Positions 58,391 to 64,000 of a DNA stretch of 64,000 nt are shown piece after piece (position 1 is the stretch's first letter; each line of letters starts with the position of its first letter). A program made the translations under genes and the position numbers. Under the pieces are notes generated by a model. That model made no database searches. It had not been told where the DNA came from and saw only the letters and a program-made list of their open reading frames with translations. This DNA is from Candidatus Leucobacter sulfamidivorax. Its GTDB lineage: Bacteria; Actinomycetota; Actinomycetes; Actinomycetales; Microbacteriaceae. The stretch is from NCBI GenBank assembly GCA_016771945.1, contig QZLF01000003.1, forward strand, positions 803,454 through 867,453, written 5' to 3'.

Positions 58391-58394
58391 GGAG

Positions 58395-58476
58395 TGGCGG
58401 GTGAGGGATTCGAACCCCCGTAGGCATAGCCAGCTGATTTACAGTCAGCCCCCTTTGGCCACTCGGGTAACCCGCC
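58395..58476 (-). tRNA. tRNA-Tyr (GTA)
   Basis: The minus strand folds as a type II tRNA of 82 nt with a long variable arm. Acceptor GGCGGGT pairs with ACCCGCC, the anticodon loop CTGTAAA gives anticodon GTA, and GGTTCGAATCC is the T arm. CCA is not encoded. Confidence 0.96.
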
Positions 58477-58543: not shown

Positions 58544-61500
58544 TCACGCGCCGGGCGCCGAGCGCTCGTCGAGCTCGGCGATCCACTCCTCGAGGCCGGC
58601 CGGCGGGGACAGCAGCCCGTAGCGGTGCGCGGTGATCGAGATCGACTGCTCGCGCAGGAAGGCGAGCAGTTCGACCGGCCCCGCCATGGTGACGGGCTCG
58701 GCCCACACCGCGACCCGGCTCTGCCCGCCGAGCCACTCCGCGGTGCGCACCGCGTCGCCGCCGATGAGCCGCACGCGCGACTCGAGCGCCGGACCCTGGC
58801 CAGGGCCCGAGCCCGAGCCGCCGCCGGATCCGCCGTCCGACCCTGCCGCGCTCGCCTCGACGGCGATGCGCTCGAGCCAGTCGTCGTCGCGTTCGAGCGA
58901 CACGGGGATGCCCTGCGAGGCGAGGAAGTCGGCGAGCTCACGCGGCAGCACCGCCCCCGTCGACACCGTCACCGGGGCGCGCACGAGCAGCGCCGCTGCG
59001 AGCACCCGGACGAGAGCCGCGAGCGGAGCCCGCTCCGCCAGTCGTATCTGTGTCGCCACCGGCCACCGCCGCAGCAGGTTGCGCTCCACGCCGAGCCCGA
59101 TCTCGTCGTGCACCCGCCCGAGCGTCGTGCGCCAGCTCAGCGCGTCGCTGAGCGCGGCCCGCCGCACCCGGTCGAAGCTCTCGTAGTCGAGCATCTGCTG
59201 GGCGGCCTCGATCAGCACCTGCACCTCGGGGTCGAGCCCGCGCAGGTGCAGCGTGCCGCTCGGCGTGCCCTCGCGCAGCTCCCACGAGCCGAGGGTCACC
59301 AGACGGCTCGGTCCACCGGCCAGCGTCTGCACCCCCATGCCGGCGTCGCCCCAACCGCCGCCCGGCAGGCGCTCGATGCGCTCGGGGCCGGTCGGCCGCC
59401 CCACGACGAGCGACGCGGCACGCGTGCGCTCGAGCCAGGGGATCAGCTCCTCGGGTGCTCCGGCGTGCAGGGCCGCGACGCCTCCCCCGCCGAGCTCGCG
59501 CTGCAGTTCGAGCGCCTCGTCGAGCGTGCGCGCCGTGATGACGCCGATCACCGGCATGCCGGCCGCATCCCGCCAGAACCGGGCATCGCGGCGCAGCCCG
59601 GTGCGGACGCCGGGACGCCACAGCCTGCCGCCCTCGCCCTCGCCCTCACCGTCGCCACCGTCCAGGCACTCGGGCTGCACGAGCCATTCCTCGCCGCTGT
59701 CGAGCTCGGTCAGCGCGCGCTGCCCCGCCTCGCCGGGCGGCTGCGGCAGCGGGCCGATGCCGAATGCGAGCGGATCGCCGTCGCCGGGGGCGGCCGTGTC
59801 GCCCGGGCGGATCCCGCGCACCGCATCGGCCAGGCGCAGCCGGAAGCGGCGCGACCTCGCCGCGCTGCCGAAGACGATGAGCACGCGCGCGGATCGGGCG
59901 CTCCCCGCGCCCGTGCCGAACGCCGAGCGCACCGCGTCCTCTGCCGCGGCGGCGGGGTCCGCGGTCGGCGCGACGAGCACGGTGCCGGGCGCGCGGAACC
60001 TGCCCTCGACCCGCAGATCGGGGCGGCGGCGGATCAGGCCGAGGGCGGTGTCGCGACTGCCCAGCACGAGCGCGCGGTCCACTCGCGGATCGGCGGCGAG
60101 CGCAGCGGCCTCGTCGTCGGCTGCGGGAACGAGGCCGACCAGGCCGGCGGGCAGACCGGCCGCCTGCCACTCCTCGATGAGCGCGACGGAGGAGCCCATG
60201 AGCCCCGGATCCACGGCCAGCACCACGGCGGATCCCGCGGCGAGCGCCGCGAGGACGGCCTCCGCCCGCTCGTCGAGAGGCACCCCGGCCTCGGCCACGA
60301 CGAGGGCGAGGCGATCCGGCCGGAAGTCCGCACCGCGCACCGCTCCGATCCCCTCCGCGAGCTGCCCGAGGTAGCGGGCGGCGTCGATGGCGCCGTTCAC
60401 CGCAGCGTCGATCGCCGGCACCGGGTCTCCGGTCTCGACGGCGACGGCCTCGAAGAGGCGGTCACGGGCGGCCGCGGGCGAGAGCGCGAGCCGTCGCAGC
60501 CGCACCGCGCGCTCGCGCGGGGCCTGCGCCCGCCACGGCTCGGCCGCGGCGAGGGCCTGGTCGACGGTCGATGCGGGATCCGCGTCCTCGACAGTGGGCT
60601 CCTCGTCGGCCGCGCTCCCGGCCGCGCGGCTCGCCGCGGCCCGTGCGAGCAGACGGCGCACCCAGGCGCGGTTCTCCGCCGGCACGGCGTCCGTGTCGGG
60701 CTCGTTCGCGAAGCCGGAGCCGGAGACGACCGGCACCCGCAGCGGCGGACCCGCGGGCGCGACGGCGATCTCGCCGGTCTCGGCCCGGCTGAGGCCGAGG
60801 ACCGCAGCGGTGAGGCCGCCCGTGTCCAGACGCTCGGGATCGGCCGGGGGCCGGTAGAAGAGGGCGCTGTCGCGCTCGCTGGGATCCCACTCCCTCGCGC
60901 GCAGCTGCACGCGGTGCGGGGTGGGGAACGGCGTCGCGGAGAGCGCCGCGGCGGTGCGGAACGCGGCGCGCTCGGCGACGAGCACCGCGGGTTCGAGCGG
61001 GTTCTCGGGCTGCTCGTCCCCGGCCTCGGCGCGGACGGCCCCGACCAGTTCGGCGGATCGCGCGAGCGCCGACTCGGGATCCGCCGCCTCCGCAGCGAGG
61101 GCGAGCAGCAGCTCGACGGCCCCGGCGAACTCCCGCGGGGGTACGAGCGGCAGCAGCAGGCGCACCCTCCGCCCCTCCCGGGCGAGCGCATCGGCGAGGG
61201 CCGATGCCGTGCCGGCCCGCAGCTGCACCGCGAGGTCGTCGCCGAGCCCTCGCACCTCTGCGAGCTCGACGGCTGCCGCCAGCAGGTGCGGATCCTCGCT
61301 CGCGGCCACGGGCACCACCGTCCCGGAGGGCGCGTCGAGCACCAGCCCGACGAGGCGCAGCCACTGCGCCGCCTGCTCGGCCCGGGTGTCGAGCGTCGGC
61401 ACAGCCAGCCCGCTCAGCACCGAGGCGATCCGCTCGCGCGCCGCGATGCCGCCCACGACGACCGCGAGCTCCAGCGGAGCACCGCCTTCGGCGACCCGCT

Positions 61501-62476
61501 GCCCCGCCCAGCGGATCAGGCGCTCGGCGATGGCCCGCGACTCCGGCAGCTCGGCGAGCAGCTGCGCACCAACTCCAAGTCCGTCGAGCGCCGGGTCGGC
61601 GAGCGCGCGAACGATGATCTCGGGCACCAGACGGGCGCCGCGGAAGTCGCTCGGGGCGAAGACGAGCACGGTGCCGTGATCGCGAGCGGCCTCGAGCACC
61701 GGACGCAGGGCGAGCGCCGCCGCCTCCGCGTCGGCGTCGAGCGACCAGTCGCCACCCGGTGCGATGCGCGCGGGGTCGACGGCGAGGTGCGTCACCGACG
61801 GCTCCGCGGCGAGCCCCGCGAGCCGGGCGAGCTCGATCTCGACCCCGACCGGGCCGAGCACGGGATCTCCGGACGAGAGCAGCACGGTGGTGAAGCCGGC
61901 CTTCTCTCCCGCGGCGAGCGCCTCGCGCAGCTCGCCCAGCCGCCCCTCTCGCGTCGTCTCGTCGGGCGTGCGCACCGAGAGCACGAGGTGCGCGACGCGG
62001 TCGCGCAGCCAGCGGCGGGCGACGGGCAGCACCGCCCAGGGCAGCCCCAGGGAGGCGAGGCCGCCGGCTCGCACGGCCAGTCGGTCCCGCGCCGGCAGTG
62101 ATGGGGGCAGCTGCCGGGAGGCCTCGCGCAGGGCGAGCGCCGCCGCGAAGGGATCCCCCTCCCCTGCTATCGACTCGAGGAGTCGCCGGGTGAAGTCGAA
62201 GCCCTCCGCGTCCCGGCGCACCCCGGCCAGCAGGTCGGGTCTGTCCTCTCCCGATGCGGGCGCGTCGCCCGGCTCACCCGGAGGGTCGGCGAGCCAGGCG
62301 TCCACCCGCGCCTCGGCTCGCTCCGTCCAGGCCCGTTCGGCCCGATCATCCACGGCCGCGCCGTCCTCGCGAAGATGCTCCTCGGGAGAGCCCTCGTCGG
62401 CAGAGCGCTCCTCGGCGTGGGCGTGCTCGGGCCGGACACCCTCGGAGTCGTCAGGTTCGCCGCGATCCACCGCCAT
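58544..62476 (-). CDS. PutA-like bifunctional proline dehydrogenase/P5C dehydrogenase homologue, probable pseudoenzyme
   Basis: An uninterrupted 1310-residue protein with the layout of PutA: an acidic N-terminal tail, a PRODH-like barrel (about 85-480), an ALDH-like P5C dehydrogenase domain (about 560-1060) and a C-terminal extension. By recalled alignment the active sites are altered. The LVRRLLEN Arg pair reads ELLLALAAE, and the SIKLSAL Lys region reads THLAVDP. The ALDH Cys motif GQRCSA reads GSARSAR, and the ETGG Glu is absent (RFRAPG). TACAGT lies 6 nt before the ATG, so it is probably leaderless. It may be a structural or regulatory relic, or bind proline, flavin or NAD without catalysis. 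Confidence 0.8.
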   Translation of the reverse strand: MAVDRGEPDDSEGVRPEHAHAEERSADEGSPEEHLREDGAAVDDRAERAWTERAEARVDAWLADPPGEPGDAPASGEDRPDLLAGVRRDAEGFDFTRRLLESIAGEGDPFAAALALREASRQLPPSLPARDRLAVRAGGLASLGLPWAVLPVARRWLRDRVAHLVLSVRTPDETTREGRLGELREALAAGEKAGFTTVLLSSGDPVLGPVGVEIELARLAGLAAEPSVTHLAVDPARIAPGGDWSLDADAEAAALALRPVLEAARDHGTVLVFAPSDFRGARLVPEIIVRALADPALDGLGVGAQLLAELPESRAIAERLIRWAGQRVAEGGAPLELAVVVGGIAARERIASVLSGLAVPTLDTRAEQAAQWLRLVGLVLDAPSGTVVPVAASEDPHLLAAAVELAEVRGLGDDLAVQLRAGTASALADALAREGRRVRLLLPLVPPREFAGAVELLLALAAEAADPESALARSAELVGAVRAEAGDEQPENPLEPAVLVAERAAFRTAAALSATPFPTPHRVQLRAREWDPSERDSALFYRPPADPERLDTGGLTAAVLGLSRAETGEIAVAPAGPPLRVPVVSGSGFANEPDTDAVPAENRAWVRRLLARAAASRAAGSAADEEPTVEDADPASTVDQALAAAEPWRAQAPRERAVRLRRLALSPAAARDRLFEAVAVETGDPVPAIDAAVNGAIDAARYLGQLAEGIGAVRGADFRPDRLALVVAEAGVPLDERAEAVLAALAAGSAVVLAVDPGLMGSSVALIEEWQAAGLPAGLVGLVPAADDEAAALAADPRVDRALVLGSRDTALGLIRRRPDLRVEGRFRAPGTVLVAPTADPAAAAEDAVRSAFGTGAGSARSARVLIVFGSAARSRRFRLRLADAVRGIRPGDTAAPGDGDPLAFGIGPLPQPPGEAGQRALTELDSGEEWLVQPECLDGGDGEGEGEGGRLWRPGVRTGLRRDARFWRDAAGMPVIGVITARTLDEALELQRELGGGGVAALHAGAPEELIPWLERTRAASLVVGRPTGPERIERLPGGGWGDAGMGVQTLAGGPSRLVTLGSWELREGTPSGTLHLRGLDPEVQVLIEAAQQMLDYESFDRVRRAALSDALSWRTTLGRVHDEIGLGVERNLLRRWPVATQIRLAERAPLAALVRVLAAALLVRAPVTVSTGAVLPRELADFLASQGIPVSLERDDDWLERIAVEASAAGSDGGSGGGSGSGPGQGPALESRVRLIGGDAVRTAEWLGGQSRVAVWAEPVTMAGPVELLAFLREQSISITAHRYGLLSPPAGLEEWIAELDERSAPGA

Positions 62477-62594: not shown

Positions 62595-63659
62595 TTACGC
62601 CGCGACGATCGGCGGAACGCCGGCCAGCGCCGCGAGGAAGCGGTCGTTCATCTCGGGGCTGCCGATCGTCACGCGGAGCCCCTCCCCCATGAAGGCCCGC
62701 GCGACCACGCCGTGCTCCCGCAGCGCCGCATCGATCTCCCCCGTGCGCTCACCCGCGCGCAGCCACACGAAGTTGCCCTGCGAATCCAGCACCGACCAGC
62801 CGGCCTCGCGCAGGCCCGCGAGCACCCGACCCCGCTCCGCGACGACGAGGCGCACCCGCGCGTCGAGCTCCTCCTGCGCATCGAGCGACGCGATCGCCGC
62901 CGCCTGGGCGAGCGCGCTCACCCCGAAGGGCACCGCGACCCGGCGCAGATTCGCCGCCACCGGCTCCCGCGCGACCGCGTAGCCGATCCTCAGGCCCGCG
63001 AGGCCGTAGGCTTTGGAGAAGGTGTGCAGCACCGCGACGTTCTCGTGGCGCCGGAAGAAGTCGAGCCCGTCCACCGCATCGGGGTCGTCGCCGAACTGCG
63101 TGTAGGCCTCGTCGATCACGACGAGCACGTCCTTCGGCACGTCCGCGAGGAAGCGCTCGAGCTCGTCGCGGCGGATCACCGCACCCGTCGGGTTGTTCGG
63201 CGTGCAGAGCAGGATCAGCCGGGTGCGGTCGGTGACCGCCGCCGCCATCGCCGGCAGGTCGTGGCGCTCATCCGCGGTGAGCGGCACGCCGACCGCGGTC
63301 GCGCCGGAGATCTGCACCAGGATCGGATAGGCCTCGAAGGACCGCCACGCGAAGATCACCTCGTCGCCCTCGCTCGCGCTCGCATTGACGAGCTGCGCGG
63401 CGACCTCGACCGAGCCGGCTCCCACGGCGACCTCGGCCGGCCGCACCCCGAGGTGCTCGGCGATGCGGTTCACGACCGCGGCGGCCGACATGTCGGGGTA
63501 GAAATGGAAGCTGCCGAGCTGCTCGCCCACCACCCGCGCGACCGACTCGAGCGGCGGGTAGGGATTCTCGTTCGACGAGAGCTTGACGGCGTTCGGGATC
63601 GACTTGCCCTGCACGTACAGGGGCAGCTGCTCGACGGCAGCCCGCTGCTTCACACCCAC
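62595..63659 (-). CDS. hisC: Histidinol-phosphate/aromatic aminotransferase family protein
   Basis: A 354-residue class I/II PLP aminotransferase. [17 protein letters not shown] is the N-terminal substrate arm, [18 protein letters not shown] is central, and the PLP Lys lies in [19 protein letters not shown] near residue 220. It transfers amino groups between glutamate and imidazole-acetol phosphate or aromatic 2-oxoacids; actinobacterial genomes often carry a second, aromatic-type copy. The GTG at 63659 overlaps the PEBP stop by one base; an in-frame GTG lies two codons later. No other his gene is near. Confidence 0.93.
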
Positions 63660-64000
63660 TACGCCGCGCCGCCGAACTCGCCGGTGGCGACGAGGATGCC
63701 GCGCGCGAGCACGGCGTCGCGCATGAGGAAGCCGAGCACGGCGGGGGTCGCCTGCGGGTCCACCTCGATGCGGTCGACGTTCAGCGCGTGCACGACGAAC
63801 CAGTAGTGGTGCACCCCGGTCCCCTCGGGGGGACCCGCTCCGATGAACTCAGAGGCGCGCAGCTCGTTCGGCATGGTGATCGCGCCCTCCGGCAGCAGCC
63901 CGGCGGCGGGATCGCCGGCGTTCGCGTCGAGACTCGTCGCGCCCGCCGGGATGTTCGCGACCGCCCAGTGCCAGAAGCCCGAGCCGGTGGGCGCGTCGGG
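63659..64000 (-). CDS. YbhB/YbcL (PEBP) family protein, C-terminal part
   Basis: The N-terminus lies beyond the right edge; 113 codons are visible. The text [10 protein letters not shown] and [21 protein letters not shown] and [10 protein letters not shown] match the Raf-kinase-inhibitor-like/PEBP fold, with the conserved GP.P.GTG.H phosphate-binding stretch. Bacterial members bind phospholipid head groups or small anions, with unknown role. It overlaps the aminotransferase gene by one base and reads in the same direction. Confidence 0.9.

Follow-up and report, generated by a model that had tools for sequence, protein, structure and literature searches.

The window analysed here is a stretch of 64,000 nucleotides of Candidatus Leucobacter sulfamidivorax (contig QZLF01000003.1), which carries on its minus strand the gene for a PutA-like protein of 1310 residues, P0001. 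The gene is located close to the contig end, and contig and window end together approximately 1.5 kb upstream of it. Its reading frame is free of stop codons, and the content of guanine plus cytosine (GC) by codon position (0.84/0.57/0.91) is gene-like in a window of 71% GC. Both observations bear out the first-pass annotation, which had described an intact two-domain frame of 1310 codons with normal coding character. The Pfam models Pro_dh (expectation value (E) 1.1e-10, residues 235-450) and Aldedh (E 5e-30, residues 627-1051) both match P0001 above their cut-offs. As judged by Pfam and the Protein Data Bank, a proline dehydrogenase (PRODH)-like domain is therefore followed by an aldehyde dehydrogenase (ALDH)-like domain in one chain, which is the architecture of PutA. 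The closest relative of known structure is the PutA of Corynebacterium freiburgense (5UX5; E 2.8e-85, or 4.8e-168 with a profile of 24 rows), with homology over the PRODH-like barrel, the ALDH-like domain and the C-terminal region. The NCBIfam matches listed (25 of 27) comprised ALDH models, PutA models and one unrelated model, all scoring far below their cut-offs. The ribbon-helix-helix N-terminal domain of trifunctional PutA proteins was not among the Pfam matches of P0001 at E up to 1. The gene and its parts are as follows.

58544..62476, minus strand: PutA paralog P0001 (PutA2), 1310 amino acids, degenerate by sequence (open reading frame scan, Pfam, Protein Data Bank match, residue alignment)
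61997..62326, minus strand: N-terminal arm region, residues ~51-160 (5UX5 match from residue 51)
61037..61939, minus strand: PRODH-like barrel, residues ~180-480, catalytic residues lost (Pfam Pro_dh 235-450; strand/helix alternation in the model)
61775..61777, minus strand: Asp234, replacing the PRODH active-site Lys (E. coli K329; orthologs and 5UX5 alignment)
61097..61102, minus strand: Ala459-Leu460, replacing the substrate-binding Arg-Arg (E. coli R555 R556; alignments)
60662..60949, minus strand: interdomain linker with TGGLTAAVLGL segment, residues ~510-605 (LTxxVLxL in orthologs)
59297..60598, minus strand: ALDH-like domain, residues ~627-1060, catalytic residues lost (Pfam Aldedh 627-1051)
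59999..60001, minus strand: Arg826, replacing the ALDH catalytic Glu (E. coli E883; alignments)
59897..59899, minus strand: Ala860, replacing the ALDH catalytic Cys (E. coli C917; alignments)
58577..59296, minus strand: C-terminal region, residues ~1061-1300, under constraint at least equal to that in active-type PutA (ortholog identity comparison)
59234..59251, minus strand: LHLRGL motif, residues 1076-1081 (orthologs)

Catalytic residues were read against E. coli K-12 PutA at nine positions, K329, D370, Q404, R431, Y540, R555, R556, E883 and C917, which we take to be the appropriate choice and numbering; the expected letter was confirmed at each of them in the E. coli sequence. Proteins with all nine residues intact are called active-type, a definition that uses the sequence only. 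At these positions the active-type PutA proteins of the family read KDQRYRREC, whereas P0001 reads D A L A L A L R A in alignments made with two sets of rows. In the profile alignment with 5UX5, the surroundings of the Lys, Arg-Arg pair, Glu and Cys are free of gaps, and the residues pair as in the E. coli alignments. 5UX5 possesses all of these residues at the aligned sites and the Leucobacter protein none, so that neither a Cys/Glu pair nor an Arg-Arg pair is placed in the active sites. The replacements that had been proposed from comparison by eye (the PRODH Arg pair, the barrel Lys, the ALDH Cys by the exchange of GQRCSA for GSARSAR, and the ALDH Glu by that of ETGG for RFRAPG) are thus all confirmed. 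Two reports (PMC6017737, PMC13155685) assign substrate binding to the Tyr-x-x-Arg-Arg of helix 8, and they describe the PRODH Lys as binding the carboxylate of proline and as the residue that an inactivator cross-links to flavin N5.

The same losses characterise the close relatives. Orthologs were present in all 54 Leucobacter genomes searched, and 49 of them, with identities to P0001 of approximately 47-60%, had a frame long enough for full alignment. Residue counts refer to these 49; split frames in G012, G021 and G032 and truncation by contig ends in G036 and G046 account for the five omitted genomes. The PRODH Lys, the Arg pair, the ALDH Glu and the ALDH Cys were each kept in 0/49 orthologs, the position of the Lys being occupied by Asp in 48 and by Glu in one. 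Sporadic retention was observed for single residues among the nine (D370 in 2/49, R555 in 4/49 and R556 in 1/49). The 8 columns on either side of the catalytic Cys site contain no Cys in any of the 49 orthologs, and in six of them the frame, as read, has no Cys at all after residue 60. In 47/49 orthologs a Glu is found no more than 4 columns away from the catalytic Glu (two positions ahead of it in P0001), but it would not restore ALDH chemistry, because there is no Cys. More generally, 301 columns show an invariance of 95% or more in each of the two active-type groups (39 PutA2 and 17 PutA1 proteins); when a column is counted as kept or lost if this holds in at least 90% of the 49 Leucobacter rows, 86 of them are kept and 117 lost. 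The lost columns include the PWNF, KPA and ExFG segments, which we take to be NAD-binding segments of ALDH. Judged by sequence, both catalytic residue sets are gone from P0001 and its Leucobacter orthologs, and the protein appears to be a conserved pseudoenzyme.

Conservation is also evident at the nucleotide level. The ratio of nonsynonymous to synonymous substitution (dN/dS, NG86) was 0.04-0.23 across 13 close pairs, and purifying selection across species maintains the orthologs, as had been supposed for the frame in the first-pass annotation. To which parts of the protein this constraint applies was examined by mean pairwise identity, comparing the P0001 orthologs with the other, active-type PutA of the same seven genomes (21 pairs). 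Identity of the P0001 orthologs was lower for the whole protein (0.60 vs 0.79), the N-terminal arm (residues 60-160; 0.58 vs 0.82), the barrel (0.53 vs 0.85), ALDH residues 625-1000 (0.60 vs 0.82) and residues 1001-1060 (0.64 vs 0.89). By contrast, it was 0.69 vs 0.65 for the linker (residues 505-605), 0.70 vs 0.66 for residues 1061-1145, 0.68 vs 0.55 for residues 1146-1205 and 0.76 vs 0.76 for residues 1230-1290, the P0001 orthologs being higher in 17, 14, 18 and 10 of the 21 pairs, respectively. The protein as a whole thus evolves faster, except in its linker and C-terminal region, to which constraint has shifted from the active sites.

Two sequence motifs mark these regions. LHLRGL is present in 49/49 Leucobacter orthologs, in 17 of 22 other degenerate proteins (one of the five without it, L240, is a fragment) and in 31 of 39 active-type PutA2 proteins, and it is absent from 19 PutA1, three unplaced active-type and 14 other-family PutA proteins. 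The linker motif LTxxVLxL occurs in 49/49, 18/22 and 22/39 of the respective PutA2 groups and in none of the PutA1, unplaced active-type or other-family proteins. Of the active-type PutA2 proteins of other Microbacteriaceae genera (e.g. L045, L153 and L193), which are the nearest active-type kin of P0001, many thus share these modules with it. The presence of the modules in active-type proteins too suggests that, in part of the family, they are older than the catalytic loss.

Whether the Leucobacter genomes also carry a separate, active PutA has a divided answer. A strong PRODH match elsewhere in the genome (Pro_dh at E up to 1e-30) was detected in 45 of the 54 genomes, and in the 33 of these 45 proteins that were read, none of the nine residues has changed; wherever its position was established, the other PutA is encoded away from the P0001 ortholog. 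No such match was obtained in the remaining nine genomes, which are that of the window (G000, 94% complete), G001, G015, G022, G025, G035, G042, G046 and G052. Completeness reaches 98% or more in five of these, and G001, G015 and G025 consist of a single contig. The seemingly dead paralog therefore persists independently of a live one. Moderate Pro_dh matches (E 2e-17 to 4e-19) were seen in short frames of 389-409 amino acids in G043 (C4), G033 (C11) and G016 (C6), which are perhaps monofunctional PRODHs.

Outside Leucobacter, a second strong PRODH accompanies the degenerate PutA2 in 15/16 genomes vs 11/42 genomes with an active-type PutA2 (Fisher p 3e-6), a hand count that ignores kinship and does not include the degenerate copies in G202, G210, G252, G259, G296 and G303. 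When the active-type side was confined to the PutA2 genomes with the greatest similarity to P0001, the result was 15/16 vs 3/23 (Fisher p 4.6e-7). The exception is G187, a genome of 2.1 Mb with degenerate PutA2 L183, where no PRODH match was found at E up to 1e-20.

The history of PutA2 within the family was approached with a tree of 64 selected rows, computed by a quick maximum-likelihood method without bootstrap, in which the outgroup does not form one side of any branch and any change among the nine residues counts as degenerate. This tree needs five changes between active-type and degenerate states, four of which are forced by well-supported branches. Leucobacter falls into a degenerate clade with support 99 together with eight other genus codes (L149, L150, L151, L155, L183, L195, L196, L210, L239, L246 and L247). 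Further degenerate groups are found under genus codes g17 (L241, L244), g49 (L253), g31 (L254) and g35 (L187, L188). If the changes in the tree are read as losses, PutA2 would have lost catalytic residues five times in the family. The other degenerate PutA2 proteins (L155, L187, L188, L196, L241, L244, L247, L253, L254) represent the same paralog, and like P0001 they have no PRODH Lys; however, in most of them more of the nine residues survive than in P0001, although L241 comes close to P0001 in the number lost. Indeed, the Lys is missing from 27/27 degenerate rows, whereas the ALDH Cys is kept in L196, L187, L247 and L254. This suggests that the PRODH site may be the first to degenerate, which for most lineages is only hinted at. 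Genus g35 contains two degenerate stages, the ALDH Cys being kept in L187 and replaced by Pro in L188. Among the neighbours common to these two loci are an Lrp-like gene and one resembling arginine-catabolism genes, both names having been assigned by eye.

A profile based on the Leucobacter proteins matched 27/396 genomes of the order at E 1e-230, all within the family of the window; it should be noted that degenerate forms of lower similarity would escape detection at this threshold. Of the 26 matching genomes other than that of the window, 11 are active-type at the nine residues (L226, L228-L237), and residue readings for several of the remaining 15 come from loci found in other searches.

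The surroundings of the gene offer a possible indication of its role. Upstream of P0001 in the window are two further genes.

62595..63659, minus strand: aminotransferase (NCBIfam PRK03321 / hisC-like), directly upstream of P0001 with a gap of ~118 bases (NCBIfam, Pfam)
63662..64000, minus strand: YbhB/PEBP-like gene, cut by the contig end (NCBIfam, Pfam)

Neighbour counts were restricted to loci with at least 7 kb upstream. A complete three-part TrpX-type ATP-binding cassette (ABC) importer is located upstream on the same strand in 28/42 Leucobacter loci, 2/15 other degenerate loci and 0/20 active-type loci, the nearest importer part lying within ~1.2 kb in 28/42 Leucobacter loci. The corresponding counts are 16/42, 0/15 and 0/20 for a same-strand upstream aminotransferase, and 27/42, 3/15 and 3/20 for an upstream YbhB-like gene. 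Hence, the nearest active-type kin differ from P0001 both in their nine intact residues and in the absence of importer and aminotransferase upstream. The importer parts were assigned by NCBIfam and Pfam as TrpX-like (under the NCBIfam cut-off), BPD_transp_2 and ABC_tran. The TrpX of Streptococcus suis is, according to one report (PMC9382623), a component of a tryptophan uptake system. In the subclade of the window itself, an aminotransferase is found in 6/8 rows. Tandem duplicates of TrpX-type importer cassettes were observed upstream of the gene in Leucobacter loci L102, L103, L117 and L140, and partly in L116, L119 and L144. On the other side of P0001, a tRNA-Tyr gene (anticodon gta; 58394-58476, minus strand), the sole tRNA gene found in the window, lies directly 3' of it. 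An open frame of 1158 codons on the opposite strand (58625-62101, plus strand) overlaps the P0001 gene and is probably a shadow frame due to high GC.

Structural modelling adds to this picture in a limited way. Two AlphaFold models, based on alignments of six rows, had mean predicted local distance difference test (pLDDT) values of 60.0 and 58.8, and Foldseek placed 5UX5 at the top for both, with template-modelling scores of 0.33-0.48. The models agree with the presence of a barrel and an ALDH-like core; portions of the linker and the C-terminal region of P0001 do not align to 5UX5. ALDH16 proteins contain a second, non-catalytic ALDH-like domain and are not known to have a PRODH-like domain. 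Their bacterial representatives (6MVR, 6MVS, 6MVU) ranked third to fifth in Foldseek for the C-terminal half of P0001, but unlike P0001 they have a Cys at the active site, which the 6MVU title names as C295. Prozyme, a catalytically dead paralog beside an active enzyme (PMC5201418), belongs to the unrelated S-adenosylmethionine (AdoMet) decarboxylase family, and the Leucobacter protein, unlike prozyme, survives where an active paralog was not found. Searches of open papers in PubMed Central listed none that, judged by its title and the beginning of its abstract, concerns a PutA pseudoenzyme. Pseudoenzymes are known and PutA is known, whereas a candidate pseudoenzyme of the PutA type has apparently not been described in the literature searched.

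On balance, we consider it somewhat probable that PutA2 has turned into a dedicated non-catalytic scaffold or regulator, which in Leucobacter would most likely serve amino-acid uptake and transamination, possibly of aromatic amino acids. The protein would keep a PutA-like fold and may bind partners through its linker and C-terminal region. A role in uptake and transamination is suggested because many orthologs follow a same-strand TrpX-type importer, an aminotransferase or both. The first-pass annotation had proposed a scaffold, sensor or regulator of proline metabolism. This class of function is still the most likely one, but apparently toward another pathway: a role in proline metabolism in particular is not supported, since the gene persists in 9/54 genomes without another strong PRODH match and its frequent neighbours within the genus are a TrpX-type importer and an aminotransferase.

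Several observations weigh against this view. The low pLDDT values mean that conserved residues and surfaces cannot be mapped in space. The linker of the other PutA proteins is shorter, so that fewer columns were compared and the linker comparison is weakened. The degenerate lineages g31, g35 and g49 have no LHLRGL, and having lost residues without it they show that the motif is no general cause of the loss. At the locus of the window, no importer is present in the ~1.5 kb before the contig end; its own subclade has an importer in 0/8 tree rows, with 1.5-8.0 kb visible upstream; a complete importer was not found in 14/42 Leucobacter loci; and the association is rare among the other degenerate loci outside Leucobacter. 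Lastly, the barrel remains under purifying selection and has acquired new near-invariant charged residues (E215, R218, D234, E336, R420 and R439), which would fit a new active site as well.

The latter point leads to the alternative that fares best, namely a neofunctionalised enzyme with a new active site for a different chemistry in the barrel or the ALDH-like domain. The new polar barrel residues, the Asp or Glu at the old Lys site in 49/49 orthologs and a dN/dS well below 1 would all be expected of such an enzyme. Nevertheless, we regard it as rather unlikely, because it is in the catalytic domains, above all the barrel, that conservation is comparatively low, and many columns that are invariant in active-type proteins have been lost from them. 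Still less likely is a partner subunit, where the dead paralog would bind and tune a live PutA, as prozyme is described to do for trypanosome AdoMet decarboxylase (PMC5201418). That precedent and the other strong PRODH match in most Leucobacter genomes speak for such a role, but nine genomes, including three single-contig ones, keep the paralog without that match, which weakens the idea of a sole role as partner of active PutA, and the other PutA, where located, is not encoded nearby. A decaying, functionless pseudogene is very improbable: the frame is split in three genomes, by true breakage or by assembly error, yet P0001 is not a decaying gene, because orthologs occur in 54/54 genomes with low dN/dS, 49 frames can be aligned at full length and all 49 keep LHLRGL. 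Finally, we give almost no credence to a still-active PutA with misaligned catalytic residues, for although a Glu lies near the lost one and both Pfam domains pass their cut-offs, several alignments agree, the 5UX5 profile alignment among them, and the orthologs have no nearby Cys, Arg pair or Lys, six having no Cys at all past residue 60.

As to how a non-catalytic scaffold or regulator may have arisen, we tentatively propose that PutA2 gained a second, non-enzymatic role while still an enzyme, as may have happened in the active-type proteins of other genera, and that catalysis was then shed repeatedly, apparently beginning with the Lys, once another PutA had taken over proline breakdown. Throughout Leucobacter, the protein would then have been drawn as a non-enzymatic component into a system for amino-acid uptake and transamination, and it would have been kept even where there is no other PRODH.

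These findings carry a warning for annotation: P0001 passes the Pfam cut-offs for PRODH and ALDH and could therefore cause proline catabolism to be wrongly credited to an organism, for example to that of the window, in whose genome no other PRODH was found. For the family, P0001 would represent a large two-domain enzyme with both active sites lost in one chain, with intermediates in sister genera and repeated losses within one family. Owing to these intermediate stages and repeated losses, the order of events, i.e. whether the second role came first or catalysis was lost first, is testable.

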